Assembly (NCBI GenBank): GCA_944385705.1
Contig: CALWYF010000005.1
Location: 1 to 57,066, forward strand
Origin: an uncultured Oscillospiraceae bacterium
GTDB lineage: Bacteria; Bacillota; Clostridia; Oscillospirales; Oscillospiraceae
Length of the DNA: 57,066 nt
Reading direction: 5' to 3'
Part shown: positions 28,513 through 53,262 of the stretch, piece by piece
How positions within the stretch are numbered: position 1 is the first letter of the stretch
Layout: the number at the start of each line of letters is the position of its first letter
Made by a program: the position numbers and the translations under genes
The notes under the pieces: generated by a model
Seen by the model: only the letters and a program-made list of their open reading frames with translations
What the model was told of the DNA's origin: nothing
Database searches by the model: none

Positions 28513-29121
28513 TCATAGGCTCCGTTTTTTGTAGAGGGCAATGGATAGCCGCCAGGAAATGAGGTAGGCTGCCACCGGGGGCAGCAGCAGGATGAGGGAC
28601 AGCTCGTCGGGGATGACAAAGGCGCCCTGGTCCATGAGGCTCACTCCGGCGGCAATGGCCGCCATGGCGGCGACGATGAAGATGAAGTAGGCAATGCGCC
28701 CTTTCTCGCTGCCCAGGGCAAAGATAAAGGGATAGAGGACGGCAGGGAAGAACAGAGCCATATATACGCAGATGCAGAGTATTTGCAACGGACTGCCTAA
28801 GCTGTCTGACTGGATCAGGTAGAAAGCAATAACTACAGGGGACCAGAGAAGCAGCAGAAGCAGGTTCAGCAGATATTTCTCAGAAACTGCGGTGGAGCGG
28901 GAGATGGGGGTGGTCTCCAGAAAGCTGTCCCAGTGGCTGCGCTCGTCGTAGGAGATGAGGCTGATATTCACTATCGGCAGCATCACTATGCCGTAAAACA
29001 TGAAAAAGCTGTTGTTTTCTCCCACAAAGGAGATGGCAGTGAAAACCACAATAATAAACAGGAAGGCACGCAGCTCCCTTTTCATCACATAGAAATCCTT
29101 TAAAAGCAAACCCTTCATCAT
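28513..29121 (-). CDS. ABC-2 type permease
   Basis: A 202-residue membrane protein with about six hydrophobic segments (for example AFLFIIVVFTAISFV, FMFYGIVMLPIVNISLI, LLLLLLWSPVVIAFYL), of the ABC2_membrane_5 type found next to YtrA-group regulators. It forms the transmembrane part of the ABC exporter encoded with the ATPase immediately upstream; the two genes overlap by 4 bp (ATGA). The export substrate is unknown; the group is often linked to cell-wall-active peptides or antibiotics. Confidence 0.85.
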   Translation of the reverse strand: MMKGLLLKDFYVMKRELRAFLFIIVVFTAISFVGENNSFFMFYGIVMLPIVNISLISYDERSHWDSFLETTPISRSTAVSEKYLLNLLLLLLWSPVVIAFYLIQSDSLGSPLQILCICVYMALFFPAVLYPFIFALGSEKGRIAYFIFIVAAMAAIAAGVSLMDQGAFVIPDELSLILLLPPVAAYLISWRLSIALYKKRSL

Positions 29122-29963
29122 ATATCCTCCTTGACCATGAAGACGAACAGTTCCTCAATGCTCACCGGCTGAGTCTTCGTGCCCCGAGGCAGGGCATCGG
29201 TGCGTACTATCAGGCGGCAGCCGTAGGGATTGTCCCGGCGGCCTATGACGGCGGAGGGCTCTATTCTCTCCGCCTCCTCCCGGGAGCACTGGAGCAGGCC
29301 GTATTCCTCCATGAGTGCGTCCTTCTCCTCCAGAAGCATGAGCTTTCCCTTGTGGAGGAAGGCTATATAGTCGCAGAGCTTTTCCAGGTCCGAGACTATA
29401 TGGGAGGAGATGAGCACCGAATGACCCTTATCCCGGGTGAAGTCCAGCAGCAGGTCGGTGACGCTGTCCCTCACCACCGGGTCCAGACCGCTGGTGGCTT
29501 CGTCCAGAAGCAGGAGCCTTGGCTTGTGGGACAGGGCCAGAACCAGGCCCAGCTTCATCTTCATGCCCCGGGAGAATTCCTTGTAGGGCTTATCCTCCGG
29601 CAGCTCCATGCGGCGGATATAGTGGGAGAAATCCTCCCGGCTCCAGCTTTTGTAAATGCTGGGCATGATCTTCTCCAGCTGCCTGAGCGTAAGCTTCTCC
29701 GGAAGACCCGGCTCATCCAGCACTACGCCTACATCCTCTTTTACCCGGCTCATGTCACCGGATATATCCTGGCCAAGCACTGAAGCAGTGCCGGAGTCCG
29801 GCTTCAATATGCCCAGCAGCAGCTTTATTGCCGTGGTCTTGCCGGCGCCGTTTTCCCCGATAAGACCCAGAATGCAGCCCTCAGGCAGCTCCAGATCCAG
29901 GGAATCCAGAGTGAAATCCTTAAAGTGCTTTGTAAGTCCCCTTGTCTCAATGGCATTGTTCAT
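29118..29963 (-). CDS. ABC transporter ATPase (YtrB-like)
   Basis: A 281-residue ATPase. Walker A GENGAGKT (36-43), signature FSRGMKMKLGLVLAL, Walker B LLLLDEATSGLDP and the switch His region SSHIVSDLE are all present. The C-terminal 60 residues are beyond the core. It energises the permease encoded downstream. Start ATG 29963 with GGAGGAC upstream; the frame could be extended to 30020, but that is inside the regulator gene. Operon order is regulator, ATPase, permease. Confidence 0.92.
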   Translation of the reverse strand: MNNAIETRGLTKHFKDFTLDSLDLELPEGCILGLIGENGAGKTTAIKLLLGILKPDSGTASVLGQDISGDMSRVKEDVGVVLDEPGLPEKLTLRQLEKIMPSIYKSWSREDFSHYIRRMELPEDKPYKEFSRGMKMKLGLVLALSHKPRLLLLDEATSGLDPVVRDSVTDLLLDFTRDKGHSVLISSHIVSDLEKLCDYIAFLHKGKLMLLEEKDALMEEYGLLQCSREEAERIEPSAVIGRRDNPYGCRLIVRTDALPRGTKTQPVSIEELFVFMVKEDI

Positions 29964-30334
29964 GTCTCGTCCTCCAAAATGTGGTACATTTCTCTGAGCT
30001 CCTGAGCGCTCAGGCCGCATTGCGCCGCCAGGCGGCGTATCTCCGCCATGTGCAGCTCTATCTCCCGCAGGTTTTCCTCCCGTATCAGCTGGGTGTTCCT
30101 GGGAGAGACAAAGCTGCCCTTGCCCGGCAGAGTGTAGATAAAGCCCGCAGCCTCCAGCTCGTCATAGGCCCGCTTGGTGGTTATGACGCTGATACGCAGA
30201 TCCTTTGCCAGAGAGCGAATGGACGGAAGCGGCTCCCCCTCAGGCAGGCTGCCGCTGATTATCTGACTTTTTATCTGGGTGAAGATCTGGTCGTATATGG
30301 GTACGCCGCTGTGGTTGTCTATCAGTATCGTCAT
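29960..30334 (-). CDS. GntR-family regulator, YtrA type
   Basis: A 124-residue protein with an N-terminal GntR winged helix (about 8-70: PIYDQIFTQIKSQIISGSLPEGE, then LPSIRSLAKDL and AGFIYTLPGKGSF) and a short helical C-terminus, the YtrA size class. It most likely represses its own operon with the ABC transporter behind it. The start is ATG 30334 with CGGAG; an in-frame ATG at 30373 lies upstream of the transcription start. A 27-bp dyad at 30351-30377 overlaps the -10 of its promoter and is the likely operator. Confidence 0.9.
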   Translation of the reverse strand: MTILIDNHSGVPIYDQIFTQIKSQIISGSLPEGEPLPSIRSLAKDLRISVITTKRAYDELEAAGFIYTLPGKGSFVSPRNTQLIREENLREIELHMAEIRRLAAQCGLSAQELREMYHILEDET

Positions 30335-30350
30335 TGCATGCATCTCCGTT

Positions 30351-30377
30351 AACTGTATATGCACAGTATACACAGTT
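30351..30377. promoter_or_regulatory. YtrA-type operator dyad
   Basis: AACTGT...ACAGTT outer arms with near-symmetric inner part (TATATGC/GTATAC-like), overlapping the -10 (30365-30370) of the regulator promoter. It is the kind of site these regulators bind to autoregulate. Confidence 0.65.
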
Positions 30378-30451: not shown

Positions 30452-30479
30452 TTGACAAGCGGGGGAAAACTGGTATAAT
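30452..30479 (+). promoter_or_regulatory. Sigma-A promoter of the SAM riboswitch operon
   Basis: TTGACA (30452-30457), 16-bp spacer, TATAAT (30474-30479), about 20 bp before the aptamer. Confidence 0.85.
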
Positions 30480-30499
30480 GTTGTCGGTAAAAATTTAAA

Positions 30500-30645
30500 C
30501 ACCTTATCGAGAGTGGTGGAGGGAACGGCCCTGTGAAGCCCGGCAACCTGCATAAATGCAAGGTGCCAAATCCGGCGGTAGACGCAAGATGAGGCTGGGC
30601 TGAAGCTGCGCTCCGTTGGAAAACGGGGCGTTTATGGTTTCGGCA
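30500..30645 (+). ncRNA. SAM-I riboswitch (S box)
   Basis: The aptamer carries the S-box landmarks: P1 strands CCTTATC (30502-30508) and GATGAGG (30588-30594), GAGAGTGGTGGAGGGA, GGCCCTGTGAAGCCCGGCAACC and AAGGTGCCAAATCCGGC. The expression platform is a hairpin CGCTCCGTT/AACGGGGCG (about 30609-30632) then TTTATGGTTT, which would terminate transcription when SAM is bound. So the operon is on when SAM is scarce. Confidence 0.93.
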
Positions 30646-30671
30646 GAGTAAAAAAAGAAAGGTGTTTTAAA

Positions 30672-31529
30672 ATGAATCCACTGATTTTCCAATCCGACTT
30701 CGGCGTGCAGGACGGAGCGGTCAGCGCCATGTATGGCGTGGCCTATACCGTGGACTCCCAGCTTCGTGTCTTTGACCTGACCCATGAGATCGAACCGTAT
30801 AACATATGGGATGCAAGCTACCGGCTCATCCAGACCGTGGCCTACTGGCCGGAGGGCTCTGTATTCGTGTCGGTGGTGGACCCGGGAGTGGGCTCGGATC
30901 GGCGCAGCATAGTGGCCAAGACCAGCACCGGCCAGTATATAGTCACTCCCGATAACGGCACCCTTACCCACATTAAGCGCAGGGTGGGCATCAGCGAGGC
31001 CAGAATAATAGACGAGACGGTGAACCGGCTGAGAGGCTCGGAGGAGAGCTATACCTTCCACGGCCGGGATGTATATGCCTACACCGGGGCCAGACTGGCA
31101 AGCGGGAAGATAGACTTCACCCAGGTGGGACCCTCCATTGATCCCGACAGCATAGTGGAGCTGCCCACTGTATCTCCAAAGGCCAAGGACGGCGTGGTCA
31201 GCGGTACCGTGGATGTGCTGGACGTGCGCTTCGGCAGCCTGTGGACCAACATTCCAAAGGCACTGTTCAAGACCCTGGGCTGCGCCGTAGGCGACAAGGT
31301 TGAGATATGCATAGAAAACGACACCCGAGTGGTGTATCATAATGTGGTCACCTACGTCCATTCCTTTGCGGAAGTCCGAGTGGGCGAGGCTCTGCTGTAC
31401 ATTAATTCTCTGGACTGCATGGCGGTAGCCATCAACCAGGGCAGCTTTGCCCGGGCCTACAGCGTGGGCACCGGCAACAGCTGGAAGATAAGCATCCGCA
31501 GACTGGATGTATCCCATTTCGGTTTTTAA
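30672..31529 (+). CDS. SAM hydrolase (DUF62 / SAM hydroxide adenosyltransferase)
   Basis: A 285-residue DUF62 protein. The N-terminal part has SDFGVQDG, the nucleotide-binding start, followed by VVDPGVGSDRR. The family's catalytic Asp-Arg-His triad is present as Asp70, Arg77 and His130 (TFHGRDVYA); fluorinase and chlorinase relatives lack this set, so the hydrolytic reaction SAM + H2O to adenosine + methionine is expected. Cytosolic. First gene of the SAM riboswitch operon, with AAAGGTG before the ATG. Hydrolysing SAM under a switch that turns on only when SAM is low looks contradictory; see findings. Whether SAM itself is the physiological substrate is unknown. Confidence 0.9.
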   Translation: MNPLIFQSDFGVQDGAVSAMYGVAYTVDSQLRVFDLTHEIEPYNIWDASYRLIQTVAYWPEGSVFVSVVDPGVGSDRRSIVAKTSTGQYIVTPDNGTLTHIKRRVGISEARIIDETVNRLRGSEESYTFHGRDVYAYTGARLASGKIDFTQVGPSIDPDSIVELPTVSPKAKDGVVSGTVDVLDVRFGSLWTNIPKALFKTLGCAVGDKVEICIENDTRVVYHNVVTYVHSFAEVRVGEALLYINSLDCMAVAINQGSFARAYSVGTGNSWKISIRRLDVSHFGF

Positions 31530-31589
31530 ATGCCGGGGCTTCGGCCCCTGCGTTTGAAAATAATATACATACAGAGGAGTAGAAAAGTT

Positions 31590-32141
31590 ATGAAAAAGTC
31601 TCCTGTGAGAACCATCGTCGCAATCGGCATCGGCGCCGCTCTGTTCTTTGTCCTGGGCCGCTTCGTGGCTATCCCCAGTCCCGTGCCCAACACCAACATC
31701 TCCGTGCAGTACGGCCTGCTGGCCTTCATGGCCGCCATCTACGGGCCTGTGGCCGGCGCTCTCATCGGTCTTATAGGCCATGCCCTCATCGACTTCAGCT
31801 ACGGCTGGGGCGTGTGGTGGAGCTGGGTCATCGCCTCCGGCGTGTTCGGCGTCATCATCGGTCTGGTAGCCTCCAAGCTGCAGCTTGCCGACGGTATCTT
31901 CGGCAAAGCCGACGCTGTTAAGTTCAACGTCTTCCAGGTGGTGGGCCACATCGTGGCCTGGGCCCTGGTAGCCCCTGTGCTGGACATCGTCATTTACAGC
32001 GAGCCTGCCAACAAGGTCTTCGTTCAGGGCCTGGTGGGCGGCGTCGCCAACCTGGTCACCACTGCCATCGTGGGCACTCTGCTCTGCGTTGCCTATGCCG
32101 CAGCCAAGCCCAAGAAGGGCAGCCTTAAGGAAGAAGAGTAA
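31590..32141 (+). CDS. ECF transporter S component, UPF0397 family
   Basis: A 183-residue membrane protein with about five to six hydrophobic segments, of the UPF0397 family. Typical features are the start TIVAIGIGAALFFVLGRF, IPSPVPNTNISVQY, AAIYGPVAGALIGLIGHALIDF and WWSWVIASG. S components bind the substrate of an energy-coupling-factor importer. UPF0397 members lie under methionine or SAM regulation in some genomes and are predicted to import a methionine-related compound; this is not proven. The start is ATG 31590 with GAGGAG; an in-frame extension from 31530 lacks a site. The ATPase and EcfT genes follow. Confidence 0.9.
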   Translation: MKKSPVRTIVAIGIGAALFFVLGRFVAIPSPVPNTNISVQYGLLAFMAAIYGPVAGALIGLIGHALIDFSYGWGVWWSWVIASGVFGVIIGLVASKLQLADGIFGKADAVKFNVFQVVGHIVAWALVAPVLDIVIYSEPANKVFVQGLVGGVANLVTTAIVGTLLCVAYAAAKPKKGSLKEEE

Positions 32142-32158
32142 GATTCAGCGCTAGACAG

Positions 32159-32185
32159 ACGGCGGGAATTTTTTCCCGCCGTTTG
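32159..32185 (+). terminator. Hairpin in the ECF operon
   Basis: ACGGCGGGAA/TTCCCGCCGT with T4 loop just after the S-component gene, then GTTT. Probably an attenuator that lowers expression of the following ATPase and EcfT genes. Confidence 0.55.
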
Positions 32186-32213
32186 CCGAATATGGGACAA
32201 GGATGCTGCCCAG

Positions 32214-32247
32214 AGCAGTACCGTCCAAAAGAGGGGACGGCACTGCT
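32214..32247 (+). promoter_or_regulatory. Stem-loop before the ECF ATPase gene
   Basis: Arms AGCAGTACCGTCC and GGACGGCACTGCT (one mismatch) 30 bp before the ATPase start. Possible processing or stability element. Confidence 0.45.
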
Positions 32248-32276
32248 GTGTACAGCCTGTATCCGGGAGGAAGAAT

Positions 32277-33983
32277 ATGGAGCCAATCATCAGATTTGAA
32301 AACTTCGGCTTTAAATATAATGCCCAGCAAAAGCCCACTCTGTACGATATAAACCTCAGTATACACAAGGGGGAAAAGGTGCTGATAGCCGGGCCCTCGG
32401 GCTGCGGCAAGTCCACTCTGGCCCACTGCATAAACGGGCTTATACCCTCCTCCTACCGGGGAGAGATGAGCGGCAGCCTGACCATAGCCGGGAAAGAGAC
32501 CAGGGATATGGGCATTTTTGAGATATCCCGCCATGTGGGTACGGTGCTCCAGGACTCCGACAGCCAGTTCATCGGCCTCACCGTGGCGGAGGATATAGCC
32601 TTTGCCCTGGAAAACGACTGCGTGGCCCTGCCGGAAATGAGGGAGCGGGTGGCCCAGGCGGCAAAGCTGGTGGATATCTCCGGGCATCTGGGCCATGCCC
32701 CCAACGAGCTCTCCGGCGGGCAAAAGCAGAGAGTTGCTCTGGCCGGGGTAATGGTGGACGATGTGGAGGTGCTGCTCTTTGACGAGCCCCTGGCCAACCT
32801 GGACCCGGCCACCGGCAAGCAGGCCGTTGAACTTATAGACGAGATACAAAAAAAGACCGGGGCTGCCGTTATAATCATAGAGCACCGTCTGGAGGATGTG
32901 CTCCACCGCCATGTGGACAGAGTGGTGCTCATGGGCGAGGGGCGGATAGTTGCCGATGTGAGCCCCGATGAGCTGCTCTCCTCCAGCCTGCTCAGGGACA
33001 GCGGCATAAGGGAGCCTCTGTACATAACCGCTTTGAAATATGCTGGAGTGGAGATAAAAGCGGACATGGCTCCGGCCAGCCTTGAGACCATAAAGCTCAC
33101 CGAGGAGCAGAAGGAGAAAGTACGCGCCTGGTTCAGCTCAAGGCCGGAGGCCCCGGCGGAGACGGACAGACCGGTGCTGCTGGAGGCCAAGGACATCTCC
33201 TTTGCCTATGACAACGGCCACCAGGCTCTGAAAGATGTGTCCCTCACGGTGTATGAAGGGGAACTGATGGCCATAGCCGGAACCAACGGCGCAGGGAAAT
33301 CCACCTTTTCCAAGCTGGTCTGCGGCTTTGAAAGACAGCAGCAGGGGAGCCTCAGCTTTAAAGGCCGGGACCTGATGGAGCTGTCCATCAAGGAGAGGGC
33401 CGACCATATAGGCTACGTTATGCAAAACCCGAACCAGATGATCTCCAAGGTGATGATATACGATGAGGTGGCTCTGGGATTGCGGACCCGGGGAGTGACC
33501 GAGGAAGAGATAGGCCCCAGGGTAGAGGAGGCCTTGAAGATATGCGGACTCTGGCCCTTTAGAAACTGGCCGGTGTCGGCATTGAGCTTCGGCCAGAAAA
33601 AACGGGTGACTATAGCCTCCATCCTGGTTTTGAAGCCGGAGATGATAATCCTGGACGAGCCCACCGCCGGCCAGGACTACCGCCACTACACGGAAATAAT
33701 GGAGTTTTTGCGGGAACTGAACTCCAGGGGAATAACCGTGGTAATGATAACCCACGACATGCACCTGATGCTGGAATACGCCCGGCGGGCCGTGGTCTTC
33801 TCCGGCGGCAGGGTGATAGCCGACGCAAGCTCCGCCGCCATTCTCACCGACAGCGAGGTCATCCGCAAGGCCAGCCTTAAGGAGACCTCTCTGTACCCTC
33901 TGGCGCTGATGTGCGGCATTGAGGACGCCAGATCCTTCGTCCAGCGCTTTATAGACTACGAGCGGGAGGCGGTGAGAAAATGA
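32277..33983 (+). CDS. ECF transporter fused ATPase (A-A')
   Basis: A 568-residue protein with two full ABC ATPase domains in one chain. Domain 1: Walker A GPSGCGKS (39-46), signature LSGGQKQRVALAG, Walker B VLLFDEPLANLDP, and IIEHRLEDVL. Domain 2 (from about 300): Walker A GTNGAGKS, signature LSFGQKKRVTIAS and Walker B IILDEPTAGQD. Most ECF systems have two separate proteins, EcfA1 and EcfA2; here they are fused, as in YkoD. It powers uptake with the S component and EcfT. Good GGGAGGA site. The stop overlaps EcfT by 4 bp. Confidence 0.93.
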   Translation: MEPIIRFENFGFKYNAQQKPTLYDINLSIHKGEKVLIAGPSGCGKSTLAHCINGLIPSSYRGEMSGSLTIAGKETRDMGIFEISRHVGTVLQDSDSQFIGLTVAEDIAFALENDCVALPEMRERVAQAAKLVDISGHLGHAPNELSGGQKQRVALAGVMVDDVEVLLFDEPLANLDPATGKQAVELIDEIQKKTGAAVIIIEHRLEDVLHRHVDRVVLMGEGRIVADVSPDELLSSSLLRDSGIREPLYITALKYAGVEIKADMAPASLETIKLTEEQKEKVRAWFSSRPEAPAETDRPVLLEAKDISFAYDNGHQALKDVSLTVYEGELMAIAGTNGAGKSTFSKLVCGFERQQQGSLSFKGRDLMELSIKERADHIGYVMQNPNQMISKVMIYDEVALGLRTRGVTEEEIGPRVEEALKICGLWPFRNWPVSALSFGQKKRVTIASILVLKPEMIILDEPTAGQDYRHYTEIMEFLRELNSRGITVVMITHDMHLMLEYARRAVVFSGGRVIADASSAAILTDSEVIRKASLKETSLYPLALMCGIEDARSFVQRFIDYEREAVRK

Positions 33984-34807
33984 TAAACATCTTCAATTAC
34001 ATCGACCGCCCCTCACCTATCCACCGCCTCACCGGAGCCACAAAGCTGGTGTGTCTGCTGTTGTGGAGCTTTGCGGCCATGCTCACCTATGACACCCGCA
34101 TGCTGACAGCTTTGCCTGTTTTGAGCTTTCTGATGTTTTATATATCCCGGATAAAGCTGAAGGACGTTTCCTTCATGCTGGGTTTCACGGCGGTTTTCAT
34201 GGTGCTCAATAACGTGCTGGTCTTTGCCTTCTCTCCCCAGCACGGGGTGGAACTCTACGGTACAAGGCATGTGCTGTTTTCCCTGGGGGGAAACTATGTG
34301 GTCACCAAGGAGCAGCTGTTCTACCACCTGAACCTGGTGCTGAAATACCTGTCCACCATACCTATCGTACTGCTCTTCGTCTGCACCACAAACCCCAGCG
34401 AGTTTGCCGCCTCCCTCAACCGCATAGGCGTCAAATACACGGTGGCCTATTCCGTGGCCCTGGCCCTCAGGTATATCCCGGATATTCAGCGGGAATACCA
34501 TGATATATCCCAGGCCCAGCAGGCCCGGGGCATTGAGATGAGCCGCAAACAGAGTCTCTCAAAAAGACTGAAAAGTGCCAGTGCAATTCTGATACCCCTT
34601 ATTCTCTCCAGTATGGACAGGATAGAGACAATATCCAACGCCATGGAACTGCGGGGCTTCGGTAAGAACAAGAGACGCACATGGTACATGGGCCGAAAGT
34701 TTTCAAAGCTGGACATTCTGGCCATGGCCTTCTGCGCTTTGCTGCTTGTAATATCCCTCAGTCTAAACGTCATAAACGGCAGCCGTTTCTGGAACCCGTT
34801 TATATAA
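33980..34807 (+). CDS. ECF transporter T component (EcfT)
   Basis: A 275-residue membrane protein with the EcfT/CbiQ layout. N-terminal hydrophobic segments are followed by a cytoplasmic coupling part with AQQARGIEM (AxxARG motif 1) and [13 protein letters not shown] (motif 2, the ARG-like pair), which contact the ATPase domains. It couples the S component to the fused ATPase. The gene overlaps the ATPase gene (ATGA) and ends 17 bp before metK. Confidence 0.92.
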
Positions 34808-34824
34808 ATAACCAAGGAGGAACC

Positions 34825-36009
34825 ATGAGCCACTATTTCTTTACGTCCGAGTCCGTCACCGAGGGACATCCCGACAAGATATGCGACCAGATATCCGATG
34901 CGGTACTGGATGCCATACTGGAGCAGGACCCCATGGGGCGGGTGGCCTGCGAGACCACAGTATCCACAGGCCTTGTGCACATCATGGGTGAGATCACCAC
35001 CAGCTGCTATGTGGATATTCCCAAGATAACAAGACAGGTCATACGGGATATAGGCTATGACCGGGCCAAATACGGCTTCGACTGCGACACCTGCGGCATA
35101 ATCACCAACATAGACGAGCAGTCCGGGGACATCGCCCTGGGTGTGGACAAGGCCCTGGAGAACAAGACCGGGGAATTTGACCAGCTGCAAAACGGAGCAG
35201 GTGACCAGGGCATGATGTTCGGCTACGCCTGCAACGAGACTCCGGAACTGATGCCTTTGGCTATCTCTCTGGCCCATAAGCTGGCAAAGCGCCTGAGCGC
35301 CGTGAGAAAGTCCGGGGAGCTTAGCTATCTCCGGCCCGACGGCAAAACTCAGGTGACGATAGAATATGACGAGAACCGGCACCCCGTCCGGGTGGACACG
35401 GTGGTGATCTCCACTCAGCACGCCCCGGAGGCGGAGCTGGAACAGATACGCCGGGACATGATAGAGCGGGTGATAAAGCCCACTATTCCCGCCGGGCTTC
35501 TGGACGAGAATACCAAGTATCTGATAAATCCCACCGGCCGCTTTGTCATAGGCGGGCCCCAGGGAGATTCCGGCCTCACCGGGCGGAAGATAATCGTAGA
35601 CACATACGGCGGCAGCGCCCCCCACGGGGGCGGAGCCTTCTCCGGCAAGGATCCCACCAAGGTGGACCGCTCCGCCGCCTATGCCGCCAGATATGTGGCT
35701 AAGAACGTGGTGGCTGCAGGCCTGGCCTCCCGCTGTCAGGTGGAGCTGGCCTATGCCATAGGCGTAGCCTCTCCCGTATCTGTGCTGGTGGAGACCTTCG
35801 GCACCGGCAAGGTAGCGGACGGTGAGCTGGAAAAAGCGGTGCTCAAGGTCTTCGACCTGCGCCCCAGCGCCATCATCCGGGATCTGGACCTGCGCCGTCC
35901 CATCTACCGGCAGCTGGCCGCCTACGGCCACATGGGCCGGGAGGATCTGGGCGTAAACTGGGAAAAGACCGACCGTACCCAGGCTCTGCTGGATGCTCTG
36001 GGAATATAA
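34825..36009 (+). CDS. metK: S-adenosylmethionine synthetase
   Basis: A 394-residue MetK that makes SAM from methionine and ATP. Conserved motifs seen are [20 protein letters not shown] at the N-terminus, [12 protein letters not shown], and the P-loop-like [15 protein letters not shown] with YAARYVAKN after it. The start is ATG 34825, preceded by AAGGAGG; an in-frame extension from 34681 is inside EcfT. It is the last gene of the riboswitch operon, 17 bp after EcfT, so SAM controls its own synthesis. It makes the SAM that the first gene of the operon can break down. Confidence 0.97.
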
Positions 36010-36041
36010 GGACAGTCCGGATAAATCGCACATATACAAGC

Positions 36042-36078
36042 AAGAGCCCTTCCGAGATTTCGGAAGGGCTTTCTCTTT
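36042..36078 (+). terminator. Terminator of metK
   Basis: AGCCCTTCCGA / TCGGAAGGGCT stem then TTTCTCTTT. Confidence 0.88.
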
Positions 36079-36139
36079 ACGTGGCGGGGCGGATGCTGTA
36101 TACTCTAGGTGTAATATGGAAATTTCGGGAGGATTGCCC

Positions 36140-38470
36140 ATGATAAGCCTTTGCAATGGATGGGAGTTCAGCTCCCAATGGAGCGAGGACTTTATGAGAG
36201 GTGAGGGGGCGGGAGAGCCGGTGCGCCTGCCCCACAATGTGAAGGAGCTGCCCCTGCACTACGCCGGGCCCGAAGACTACGAGGGCGTCTGGGGCTACCG
36301 GCGGAAGCTGGATATCCCGGAGTCCTGCCGGGGAAAGAAACTGTTTTTGCAGTTTGACGGAGCAGCCCACCAGGCCTGGGTCTATGTGAACGGACGCTTT
36401 GCCGGAGAACACCACTGCGGCTATACCGCCTTCCGCCTGGACATTACGGAGCTTGTAAACTTTGGCGGGGAGAACCTGGTGGCGGTAAAGCTGGACTCGA
36501 GAGAGGACGGCAGCATACCCCCCTTCGGCTTCGTTATCGACTATCTCACCTACGGCGGCCTTTACCGGGAGGTCTGGCTGGATGTGAGGGAGCAGAGCTA
36601 TATTGAGGATATTTTCGTCACCACTCCCGGCCTGACCACTGCCAGGGTGAGAATGAAGGTGCAGGGAAACTGGGACAGACTTCGACTTGCCATAATGGAC
36701 GGAGCGGAGGAACTGCTCAGCACCCTGGGAGGCACGGAGCAGCTGCTGAGTCTGCCCAAGGCGGAGCCCTGGGACATATTCTCCCCCAAGCTCTACACCC
36801 TGAGGGCGGAGCTGCTGGACAAAGAGGGAGAAGTGCTGGACACTCAGCAGGTCTCCTTCGGTTTCCGCACAGCGGAGTTTAAGGCCGAGGGCTTTTACCT
36901 CAACGGGAAAAAGACCTTTCTCCGGGGCCTCAACCGGCACCAGAGCTACCCTTATATAGGCTATGCCGCCCCGGAGAGTCTCCAGCGGGAGGACGCCAGG
37001 ATACTGAAGCAGGAGCTCAAGTGCACTGCCGTGCGCACCTCCCACTATCCCCAGAGCCAATACTTCATAGATGAGTGCGACCGGCTGGGACTGCCGGTGT
37101 TCACCGAGCTGCCGGGCTGGCAGCACATCGGGGACGAAAGGTGGAAGGATCAGGCGGTGGAGAATCTGAGGGAGATGATACTCCAGTACCGCAACCACCC
37201 CAGTATAATCCTCTGGGGCGTGAGGATAAACGAGAGCGTGGATGACGATGAGTTCTACCGGCGCACCAACGCTCTGGCCCACGAGCTGGACGACAGCCGC
37301 CGGACCTCGGGAGTGCGCTACCTGGAAAAGAGCCATCTGCTGGAGGATGTATACGCTTACAACGACTTCTCTCACAACGGCCTGACTCCCGGAGCCAAGA
37401 AGAAAAAAGACGTCACTCCCGATATGAATAAGGCCCTTATAATCAGCGAACACAACGGCCACATGTTCCCCACCAAGAGCTTCGATCCCTGGGAGAAGCG
37501 CCAGGAGCATGCCCTGCGCCACGCCCGGGTCCAGTCGGCGGCGGCAGGGTCCGGGGAGCATGCCGGCTGCTTCGGCTGGTGCATGTTCGACTATGCCACC
37601 CATAAGGACTTCGGCTCCGGGGACCGCATCTGCTACCACGGTGTGCTGGACTCCTTCCGCAATCCGAAACTGGCGGCGGCGGTGTACTCCAGCCAGGGTG
37701 AGGAGCCGGTGCTGGAGCTGGGCTGCCCCATGGACATAGGGGACTACCCCGCCGGAAACGTGGGAAAGATATACGCCTTTACCAATGCGGAAGAAGTGGC
37801 CCTGTATAAAAACGACATGTACGTCACCAGCTTTACCAAGCGGGAGCAGGAGGGCCTGCGCTGCGGCCCGGTGCTGATAGACGACACTATAGGAGAACTC
37901 TTAAAGACCCAGGAGGGTTTTCCCGATAAGGAGGCGGAGCTTCTGCGCCGCTGTCTTATCTCCGCAGGCAGGCACGGCCTGGCCAATATGCCCGCATGCG
38001 ACAAGGCCCGGATGCTCTGGTGCATGCTGCGCTACCGCTTAAGCATGGACGACGGCGTGAAGCTCTACGGCAAGTACGTGGGCAACTGGGGCGGGGAGGC
38101 TACACGATGGCGCTTCGACGGCAAAGTTGGGGGCAGGACGGTGATAAGCCGCACCCTCTGCCCGGGAAAGCAGCTGCATATTGAAGCTCGGTGCAGCCAT
38201 ACCCGGCTGAAGGAGAGGGACACTTACGACATGGCGGCAGTGCGGCTGCGGCTGCTGGACGAGTGGGGCAACATCGCCAGCTACGCCCAGCTGCCGGTGC
38301 ATTTTAAACTCAGTGGGCCTCTGGAGCTGGCCGGGCCGGACTGGGCCACCGCTGAAGGCGGAATGACCGGCTGCTATGTTAAGACTATAGGCCGGGCCGG
38401 TGGGGCGGAGCTGAAGATATCCGTGCCGGGTCTGGAGCCTGTGAAAATAGGATTCGAGGTGGAAGCATGA
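36140..38470 (+). CDS. Glycoside hydrolase family 2 (beta-galactosidase/glucuronidase type)
   Basis: A 776-residue GH2 enzyme without signal peptide, so probably cytoplasmic. The N-terminal sugar-binding jelly roll (about 1-150) has GYRRKLDIP and VYVNGRFAG. An immunoglobulin-like domain follows, then the TIM barrel (about 245-520) with FLRGLNRHQSYP and RTSHYPQS. The acid/base is Glu365 in RINES and the nucleophile Glu437 in SEHNG. The C-terminal part is beta-rich. The sugar cannot be read from sequence; a galactoside or glucuronide is possible. The start is ATG 36140 with GGGAGGA; extension to 35993 overlaps metK. It is coupled (4-bp overlap) to a GH36 alpha-galactosidase gene. Confidence 0.88.
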   Translation: MISLCNGWEFSSQWSEDFMRGEGAGEPVRLPHNVKELPLHYAGPEDYEGVWGYRRKLDIPESCRGKKLFLQFDGAAHQAWVYVNGRFAGEHHCGYTAFRLDITELVNFGGENLVAVKLDSREDGSIPPFGFVIDYLTYGGLYREVWLDVREQSYIEDIFVTTPGLTTARVRMKVQGNWDRLRLAIMDGAEELLSTLGGTEQLLSLPKAEPWDIFSPKLYTLRAELLDKEGEVLDTQQVSFGFRTAEFKAEGFYLNGKKTFLRGLNRHQSYPYIGYAAPESLQREDARILKQELKCTAVRTSHYPQSQYFIDECDRLGLPVFTELPGWQHIGDERWKDQAVENLREMILQYRNHPSIILWGVRINESVDDDEFYRRTNALAHELDDSRRTSGVRYLEKSHLLEDVYAYNDFSHNGLTPGAKKKKDVTPDMNKALIISEHNGHMFPTKSFDPWEKRQEHALRHARVQSAAAGSGEHAGCFGWCMFDYATHKDFGSGDRICYHGVLDSFRNPKLAAAVYSSQGEEPVLELGCPMDIGDYPAGNVGKIYAFTNAEEVALYKNDMYVTSFTKREQEGLRCGPVLIDDTIGELLKTQEGFPDKEAELLRRCLISAGRHGLANMPACDKARMLWCMLRYRLSMDDGVKLYGKYVGNWGGEATRWRFDGKVGGRTVISRTLCPGKQLHIEARCSHTRLKERDTYDMAAVRLRLLDEWGNIASYAQLPVHFKLSGPLELAGPDWATAEGGMTGCYVKTIGRAGGAELKISVPGLEPVKIGFEVEA

Positions 38471-40041
38471 AATTTGAATACATTGTCCGGCTGATAGACG
38501 GCAAGAGCCTGCGGGGCAGCCGGGAGCTGGAGCCGGGGGAAAACATTATAAAGCTCTCCCTGCCTGAGGGGGTGCTGGAAAAAGCCGCGGGCAGCCTGGA
38601 GCTTGAGCTGGAGGATGGGGAAAAGTTCTTCCTCAACGGCTACCAGACCTGGAGCTATTGCCCGGAGTACGACAAGAACAGCCGGATGATTCCCTGGAGA
38701 AAGCTGCCGGGCTTCATCGTGCGCCACTACGGCATAGACCGCTACGGGGACTACTACTTCATGGACTATCCTAAAAAGCGGGGCCTGGCCCACGGCTACA
38801 GCTACTGTTATTTCCGCCGGGGTGAGACTTACCGGCTCCTGGCCTCCCTGGATGAGAGGCCGGGCTACACCGTCTTCAAGTATGACAGCCGGGCGGGCCT
38901 GCTGGAGATAGAGCGGGATTGCGCCGGACTGAAAGTGGAAGGAGACTTCCCGGCCTTCAGTCTCTACTATGCTCAGGGCAGCGAGGAGGAGGTCTTTGAC
39001 GGCTGGTTCAAGGCCCTGGGTATAGAGCCCAGAACAAAGGAAAAGCTCACCGGATATTCCAGCTGGTACAACCGCTATGAGAACATAGACCAGGAGAGCA
39101 TACTCTCCGACCTGGAAGGCTGCTCCAAGGTACTGAAAGAGGGAGACCTTTTCCAGATAGACGACGGCTGGCAGCTGGGTGTGGGGGACTGGCAGGTGGA
39201 CGAAAAGAAATTCCCCCGGGGCCTCAAGCCCGTTGTTGACGAGATACATGCCAAGGGCCTGAAGGCCGGGCTGTGGCTGGCTCCCTTCGGCTGCCGCAAG
39301 GGCGCAAAGCTCATGAAGGAGCACCCGGACTGGCTGCTCAAAGTGGAAGGGGAGCCCTGGCACTGCGGCTGCAACTGGGGAGGTTTTTACTCCCTGGATA
39401 TAGACAAGCCGGAGGTCCTGGATTATTTGCGCCGGGTATTTGATACGGTACTGAATGACTGGGGCTTTGACCTGGTGAAGCTGGACTTCCTCTATGCTGC
39501 CGCCCCCTTTGGAAACAAGAGGGAAACCAGGGCCGGGAGAATGATACGGGCCATGGAGCTGCTGCGGGAATTTTGCGGAGATAAGCTTATTCTGGGCTGC
39601 GGCGTGCCCCTGATGCCCGCCTTGGGTCTGGTGGACTACTGCCGCATAAGCTGCGATGTTGGACTGGACTGGGACAATACCTGGATAATGCGCCATACCA
39701 ATCTGGAACGGGTATCCACCAAGCAGGCTATAGAAAACGGCATCTTCCGCCGTCAGCTCAACGGCCGGGCCTTTCTCAGCGACCCCGATGTGTTCTTCCT
39801 GAGAGAGGACAATATCAAGCTGACGGACAGGGAGAAAAAGCTTCTGGCAGACTGCTGCAGCCTCTTCGGCGGAATGCTCCTCTGCTCCGACGACATGTCC
39901 AAATACTCTGAAGCGGCTCTGGAGCAGTACAGGCAGATGCTTAAAAACCGGAAGGCGGAGAATATCAGAGTCCTCTCCGACAGCGGCCTTGCCGTGGAAT
40001 ATGAGCTGGAGGGACAAAAGCACGGCTTCATACTGAAGTGA
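38467..40041 (+). CDS. Alpha-galactosidase, GH36
   Basis: A 524-residue GH36 enzyme. The N-terminal beta sandwich contains YQTWSYCPEY. The TIM barrel (about 190-430) has GYSSWYNRY, the nucleophile Asp340 in VKLDFLYAA and the acid/base Asp397 in SCDVGLDWD. The IDDGW pattern near 231-235 and WLAPFG fit GH36 or the related GH27/31 clan D. No signal peptide. It hydrolyses alpha-galactosides such as melibiose or raffinose type sugars. The gene overlaps the GH2 gene by 4 bp. A terminator follows, so the GH2-GH36 pair is its own operon; galT nearby could process the galactose released. Confidence 0.88.
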   Translation: MKFEYIVRLIDGKSLRGSRELEPGENIIKLSLPEGVLEKAAGSLELELEDGEKFFLNGYQTWSYCPEYDKNSRMIPWRKLPGFIVRHYGIDRYGDYYFMDYPKKRGLAHGYSYCYFRRGETYRLLASLDERPGYTVFKYDSRAGLLEIERDCAGLKVEGDFPAFSLYYAQGSEEEVFDGWFKALGIEPRTKEKLTGYSSWYNRYENIDQESILSDLEGCSKVLKEGDLFQIDDGWQLGVGDWQVDEKKFPRGLKPVVDEIHAKGLKAGLWLAPFGCRKGAKLMKEHPDWLLKVEGEPWHCGCNWGGFYSLDIDKPEVLDYLRRVFDTVLNDWGFDLVKLDFLYAAAPFGNKRETRAGRMIRAMELLREFCGDKLILGCGVPLMPALGLVDYCRISCDVGLDWDNTWIMRHTNLERVSTKQAIENGIFRRQLNGRAFLSDPDVFFLREDNIKLTDREKKLLADCCSLFGGMLLCSDDMSKYSEAALEQYRQMLKNRKAENIRVLSDSGLAVEYELEGQKHGFILK

Positions 40042-52997: not shown

Positions 52998-53025
52998 TTG
53001 CCCCCAGGGAAAACAAAAATATAAT
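52998..53025 (+). promoter_or_regulatory. Sigma-A promoter of 6S RNA
   Basis: TTGCCC (52998-53003), 16 bp, TATAAT (53020-53025), with the predicted start near 53030. Confidence 0.7.
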
Positions 53026-53029
53026 TCCT

Positions 53030-53225
53030 GCTGTGTGCGTGTTGCCTTTTTAGGCTTTTTGGCCCATTAAACCCACATCTCTTATAAGGGATGCCGATTT
53101 GAATCTGCGGATTGCAGGCCTCCCGGCCTACAAAAGCTGGATGTTGGAAGCAGTGAAACAGAACTTAGGCGACCCACCTGCTCTTATGTGCAGGTTATAA
53201 TTGGGCCGGCACGGCATTTGCGGGG
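53030..53225 (+). ncRNA. ssrS: 6S RNA
   Basis: No ORF, but the ends match 6S RNA. The 5' part CTGCTGTGTGCGTG pairs with a 3' GGCACGGC...TTGCGGGG to form the closing stem. The 3' half has the conserved GACCCACCTGC followed by a GCAGGTT hairpin partner. 6S RNA mimics an open promoter and binds RNA polymerase with the housekeeping sigma factor, down-regulating transcription in stationary phase. It is followed by a strong terminator. Confidence 0.85.
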
Positions 53226-53226
53226 T

Positions 53227-53262
53227 ACTCTCCGGAGCTCAGCTCCGGGGAGTTTTTTGTTT
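53227..53262 (+). terminator. Terminator of 6S RNA
   Basis: ACTCTCCGGAGCT / AGCTCCGGGGAGT stem, then six T. Confidence 0.88.

Follow-up and report, generated by a model that had tools for sequence, protein, structure and literature searches.

Why should a bacterium make an enzyme that destroys S-adenosylmethionine (SAM) alongside the very enzyme that synthesizes it? The question is raised by a 57,066-nucleotide stretch from an uncultured Oscillospiraceae bacterium (the whole of it is referred to here as the window), in which a SAM-I riboswitch heads genes for a DUF62 SAM hydrolase, an energy-coupling factor (ECF) importer, and the methionine adenosyltransferase MetK. The answer that we favor, and consider reasonably probable, is that the genes form an import-and-split operon for methionine salvage: SAM or a relative would be imported, DUF62 would free its methionine, and MetK would rebuild SAM. 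When SAM is low, the SAM-I leader would let transcription through, and the cell would import SAM or a similar sulfonium nucleoside through the ECF system; the useless (R,S)-epimer that builds up as SAM ages is a plausible part of that cargo. DUF62 would use water to split the imported compound into methionine and adenosine; the freed methionine would then serve translation and, via MetK, provide fresh (S,S)-SAM. No futile cycle would arise if DUF62 mainly met imported or (R,S)-SAM.

The operon and its hydrolase

The leader and all five genes are visible in the sequence, on the + strand. A sigma-70-type promoter (30452–30479; TTGACA-16-TATAAT, a 12/12 match to consensus, with TG before the -10) precedes the SAM-I aptamer (30501–30595), which matches the full RF00162 model at 77.3 bits (gathering score, 44.4; E = 1.7e-16) and is the only SAM-I match in the 2.26-Mb, 96% complete genome. 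A terminator scan places the expression platform's terminator-like hairpin at 30608–30631, followed by TTTATGGTTT. Then come the DUF62 gene (30672–31529; PF01887, E = 1.7e-49; PF20257, E = 1.6e-22), whose product is a predicted SAM hydrolase (hydroxide adenosyltransferase), and, after 60 bp, the gene for the ECF S component of family UPF0397/PF07155 (31590–32141; E = 1.6e-52; PRK13661, 236.8 bits against a cut-off of 99). A 135-bp gap holding a strong hairpin, read directly at about 32159–32182, separates the latter from the fused EcfA-EcfA' ATPase gene (32277–33983; two ABC_tran stretches plus DUF3744, with ECF_ATPase_1 over its cut-off). The gene for the transmembrane component EcfT (33980–34807; PF02361, E = 2.7e-33) overlaps the ATPase gene by 4 bp, the sole overlap in the operon, and lies 17 bp before metK (34825–36009; TIGR01034, 597.8 bits, cut-off 309.4). 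All five proteins clear their Pfam cut-offs widely, and the importer is of the type with a dedicated module, its S component, two ATPase domains, and EcfT being encoded in one gene cluster. An 11-pair palindrome 3' of metK (36045–36070) is the probable operon terminator; the scan listed it on the - strand only, but the + strand reading has a T-rich tail too. Promoter, switch, and gene identities had all been called from the letters alone, and the scores bear them out. That reading had also described short gaps or 4-bp overlaps, which is accurate for the ATPase/EcfT and EcfT–metK junctions but not for the 135-bp gap with its hairpin; a single transcript across the operon is likely.

The window DUF62 contains SAM_HAT_N and SAM_HAT_C domains well over cut-off, and its structure model is closest to the folds of 2zbu, ClA1, SalL, and fluorinase. 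Its proposed triad, Asp70-Arg77-His130, held up, being invariant in an alignment of 11 sequences, and all three residues are kept in 101 of 110 DUF62 relatives. According to PMC10491745, this Asp-Arg-His triad sets hydrolases apart from halogenases; a halogenase was rejected on the presence of the triad and a fluorinase equivalog score far under cut-off. The expected reaction is SAM plus water to methionine plus adenosine. In family, fold, triad, and expected reaction the enzyme resembles PH0463, SaDUF62, and StDUF62, the last of which prefers (R,S)-SAM as its substrate (PMC12120602). It differs from these three in being co-operonic with an importer and metK, and in falling far under both NCBIfam cut-offs for (R)-SAM hydrolase equivalogs (141.4 vs. 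350 and 114.6 vs. 470).

Recurrence and control of the DUF62–importer pair

Our reading gains support from the finding that DUF62 and the importer occur together, in different arrangements and under different methionine-related signals. Among 398 genomes sampled across the phylum, DUF62 occurs in 23 and the UPF0397 S family, over cut-off, in 11; six genomes have both, each time in one cluster (6/11 S-positive genomes vs. 23/398 overall; Fisher p = 7e-6, or 7e-5 without the window genome). A second sample consisted of 101 genomes of the window genus, the window genome included, of which 91 contain SAM-I, 94 contain metK, and only 7 contain DUF62. Here we counted 31 PF07155 genes of at least 155 bits in 30 genomes, the next scoring 122 and all lower scorers being dropped; because gene calls picked antisense frames in GC-rich loci, only homology-labelled neighbors were used. 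A SAM-I switch lies within 2.5 kb upstream and on the same strand for 20 of the 31 S genes (directly upstream for 15), and metK lies downstream of 12 and between switch and S gene in 2. All seven DUF62 genes adjoin an S gene, in two gene orders. In three (the window, G016, and G098) DUF62 is placed between the switch and the S gene, G016 having an extra gene between EcfT and metK; the other four have no switch beside them, and in G009 and G033 the order is ATPase-EcfT-DUF62-S, with a DUF62 that is 48–49% identical to that of the window. The importer is therefore commonly SAM-controlled in this genus, since 20/31 S genes follow SAM-I, and there are at least two ways in which DUF62 is arranged with it.

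Beyond the genus, we surveyed the best 80 of 588 confirmed DUF62 loci, a choice by which the survey leans towards window-like loci. Their record titles assign them to Lachnospiraceae, Oscillospirales, Erysipelotrichia, Bacillaceae, Coriobacteria, spirochaetes, and others; the viral contigs searched gave no match. One or more same-strand ECF genes were present in the fetched stretch of 66 loci, and all four genes in 45, with S, ATPase, and EcfT labels assigned in a single phmmer run of the window proteins, which may have missed some; an S component was also seen in L112, L145, and L183. Two or three DUF62 genes occur in 28 of the 80 loci. In L150 (256-2073), two DUF62 units are fused.

The adjacency of DUF62 and S component on which the sequence-only reading had relied therefore recurs, but the complete SAM-I–DUF62–ECF–metK wiring was found in only 3/101 genus genomes and 1/80 named loci, all of the window lineage. 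Because it is confined to that lineage, metK is not a general part of the module: what is widespread is DUF62 with the ECF genes, and the wiring with SAM-I and metK is a local form of it. The proposed salvage unit gains support in its importer–hydrolase half, which is backed by the pairing across Bacillota, methionine-type T-boxes, signal-peptide-like relatives, and a probably auxotrophic host, and not in the generality of its MetK half.

Conservation of the module can be read directly from these loci, as can methionine- or SAM-type control of some of its members. In 13 loci DUF62 is immediately preceded by a T-box that scores over the Rfam gathering threshold: L098, nine Bacillaceae, two Enterococcus faecium plasmids with the same leader, and Listeria monocytogenes. 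The specifier position is AUG in 13/13, as read from the Rfam alignment or, for part of them, from the letters only; the corresponding triplet of a bystander T-box in L182 is UAC. Ten phylum loci were also scanned and yielded one T-box (that of L098) and no SAM-I. A SAM-I model built from 19 leaders and run over the window and the 80 loci matched only the window and L148, the next best E-value being 0.87, so the idea that homologous modules outside the genus also carry SAM-I was rejected. The control RNAs that were found are, by type, sensors of methionine or SAM, not of flavin.

Three further contexts suggest that the hydrolase meets a substrate from outside. A DUF62 53% identical to that of the window is matched in 2374/5426 complete Escherichia coli genomes and lies between yigE and uvrD (L200:1435-2337, L199:4935-5837, L195:7001-7825); the L200 copy, annotated as intact, and the L199 copy, flagged as broken, have the same signal-peptide-like N-terminal stretch, and L195 has no intact frame. 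The Aeromonas caviae DUF62 has a signal-peptide-like start too, all such calls having been judged by eye. If so, the enzyme would be periplasmic, and a periplasmic SAM hydrolase would meet external SAM only. Secondly, DUF62 follows the genes of another importer type (solute-binding protein, permease, and ATPase) in the spirochaete locus L170, and a permease gene precedes it in L173. Thirdly, it keeps company with methionine genes: in G414, a genome that may be Streptococcus-like, DUF62-S comes after genes for MetQ, for an M20 peptidase, and for a MetN-like ATPase (under the NCBIfam cut-off), and a conjugative E. faecium plasmid (L203:408-9990) has mmuM and a gene for an amino-acid permease close to the module, with IS1216 copies between and around them. 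T-boxes precede both of the plasmid's gene sets, that of DUF62 aligned to AUG and the other AUG-like by eye. In L. monocytogenes, DUF62 stands alone behind its methionine-type T-box, next to mdrT (L196:6667-7828).

The host itself is probably a methionine auxotroph, because its 96% complete genome contains no MetE domain, no MetH over cut-off, and no convincing MetB/C/Y; PF01053, the family present in 14/14 control genomes, gave one partial match of 28.7 bits (cut-off 27) and three under cut-off. A lone homocysteine methyltransferase gene adjoins a RACo-like corrinoid reactivase gene (L188, G000:C22:10000-26000), with a 5-formyltetrahydrofolate cyclo-ligase gene and a URO-D/B12 fusion nearby, and this cluster could possibly encode an unusual methionine synthase.

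What the importer carries

From this context we infer the substrate, its stereochemistry, and the direction of transport, and the S component itself was of limited help. Its model (pLDDT 91) has ECF S components as its nearest solved folds, the closest being TmRibU, and the S components for biotin, folate, and thiamin match with TM-scores similar to that of TmRibU; because several vitamins' S components fit so nearly equally, the fold does not name the substrate. Residues D68, W76, and W79 occur in all S components, both the 74 that accompany DUF62, some of which share a genome, and the 29 that do not, and N154 and Q146 do so except for one gapped row. Since the conserved residues are shared, the substrate seems from the alignment to be the same in both groups, but sequence alone cannot name it.

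Several observations weigh against import of a SAM-like compound for splitting. DUF62 is absent beside 24 of the 31 high-scoring S genes in the genus, which have the same conserved residues and fit a plain methionine importer equally well. Conversely, 17 of the 23 DUF62-containing phylum genomes have no S family member over cut-off, no ECF gene was seen in 14 of the 80 named loci (some contigs end early), and the Listeria DUF62 has no ECF importer beside it. Control by methionine or SAM is also a minority feature: a motif search found a direct upstream T-box in 9/80 named loci, which are nine of the ten Bacillaceae loci, and the SAM-I model matched only one (L148), so that by these searches about 70 have neither (four of them with fewer than 400 bases before DUF62), and neither was found in L099–L107. 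The triad is imperfect in the wider family, His130 being replaced by Tyr in seven and by Phe in one of the 110 DUF62 ORFs, with one gapped, and two of the three inspected E. coli copies appear broken. As to the enzyme, PMC12120602 reports that ordinary salt all but abolishes the activity of StDUF62, and the authors of that 2025 paper doubt that clearance of (R,S)-SAM is the role of DUF62.

The chief alternative, which we regard as unlikely yet the most serious of those considered, is that the ECF system imports methionine itself and that DUF62 separately recycles intracellular (R,S)-SAM when methionine is short. SAM-I control of S genes that lack DUF62, methionine T-boxes on DUF62–ECF loci, and the reported preference of StDUF62 would all suit it, as would the phrase "methionine-regulated ECF transporter MtsA" that is already in annotations (PMC9423846; PMC5408102 and PMC5066943 as listed). 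The Streptococcus suis MtsA (SSUSC84_0348) is, like the window S protein, an ECF S component and, by its label, methionine-controlled; its neighbor 0347 shares the name "DNA-directed RNA polymerase subunit delta" with PDB 7ccg, a member of the DUF62 family. The likeness drawn here is one of label, and the part of PMC9423846 consulted mentions neither SAM-I nor metK for MtsA. Against methionine as the cargo, the host already has MetQ and so a likely importer for methionine itself, as do its congeners (88/101 genomes, host included); this distribution also disposes of the idea that the S component replaces MetQ, for which a complementary pattern was sought and not seen. Adjacency of DUF62 to the S gene in different orders, the location of DUF62 beside another importer type, and the signal-peptide-like N-termini in E. 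coli and Aeromonas likewise point to an external substrate.

It is improbable that the importer carries some other adenosyl compound or methionine precursor, such as methylthioadenosine or decarboxylated SAM, with DUF62 acting on a related sulfonium. What favors this is that the known context consists of regulation and neighbors only; on chemical grounds, methylthioadenosine is an implausible substrate for DUF62 because it has no sulfonium leaving group. Still less can be said for a riboflavin importer, which is what the database names imply: the S protein scores over the riboflavin-named cut-offs PRK13661 and PF07155, and TmRibU is its nearest solved fold, but the other vitamins' S components match as well as noted above, and no flavin mononucleotide riboswitch over gathering score was found in the window or the 37 loci scanned, part of which have SAM-I or a methionine T-box instead. 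Riboflavin import was judged highly improbable for that reason, and the riboflavin name is without regulatory support here.

Equally improbable is overflow control, in which DUF62 drains excess SAM and its translation rises with SAM while the downstream genes are SAM-off. It was suggested by a 9-nt complementarity (AAACACCTT/AAGGTGTTT) between the DUF62 Shine-Dalgarno sequence and the 5' strand of the aptamer's P1 helix (within window 30490–30690), which is found in all three DUF62-led leaders and reaches at most 7 nt in 39 others; the predicted unliganded fold hides the Shine-Dalgarno sequence. Forcing P1 opened the site only partly, and G012 and G121, with no switch at that place, have nearly the same Shine-Dalgarno sequence and an 8-nt complement. 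A SAM-on switch was demoted because these switchless relatives keep it, and the complementarity may be accidental for the same reason. The terminator-like hairpin is also kept, lying within 110 nt after P1 in the window leader and in 39 other distinct genus leaders; in the window it has 5 T in the next 8 bases (range in the genus leaders, 3 to 7). SAM-off polarity of the window switch would follow from its riboswitch class.

Import and splitting of SAM or a relative has partial parallels in known salvage systems. MmuPM salvages S-methylmethionine, i.e., it imports a methionine sulfonium to recover methionine; it differs from the window operon in using a permease and a homocysteine methyltransferase, and the E. 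faecium plasmid with mmuM near the module brings the two together. The Clostridium difficile QrtT-QueK-QueL system (PMC11477304), like the window, combines a riboswitch and an ECF S component with a hydrolase, which releases the wanted portion of the nucleoside taken up, but it salvages queuosine and has a different ligand, hydrolase, and riboswitch. No title listed by the literature searches concerned an ECF importer for SAM or a DUF62–ECF pairing. Two papers by Rodionov, from 2004 and 2009, reportedly predict methionine ECF transporters, and prior prediction of the transporter is thus likely; the proposal that DUF62 and the ECF genes form a module for salvage, and the variant of it with SAM-I and metK, appear to be new.

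We are more hesitant about the general case: it is possible, at a little under an even chance, that UPF0397 ECF systems are dedicated importers of SAM, the dead (R,S)-epimer included, with the neighboring DUF62 clade as salvage hydrolases, making up a widespread and partly plasmid-borne form of scavenging. Were this true, a SAM-scavenging pathway would explain why many bacteria make a SAM-destroying enzyme, and the riboflavin label in public databases would be corrected. Its association with an importer that methionine or SAM signals control gives DUF62, an enzyme family of disputed purpose, a directly testable role.

Neighboring genes

A divergent GntR regulator gene and an ABC transporter pair occupy the - strand upstream of the operon promoter (28513–30373) and neighbor the operon in several relatives too. 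Other genes recur around DUF62–ECF clusters elsewhere. A GNAT-type gene was seen in 11 clusters and an M20 peptidase gene within or near four, the loci with one or the other being L119–L138 and others, and L165, L179, and L183. The GNAT part in L128, checked against Pfam, is fused to a GntR/UTRA regulator part, and one of the M20 genes was checked as well. Downstream of metK, the window encodes a GH2 family enzyme and a melibiase-like gene (35993–40041, + strand). Further afield are a 6S RNA (53022–53230, + strand) and, on the - strand, tRNA genes at 496–581 and 834–922.

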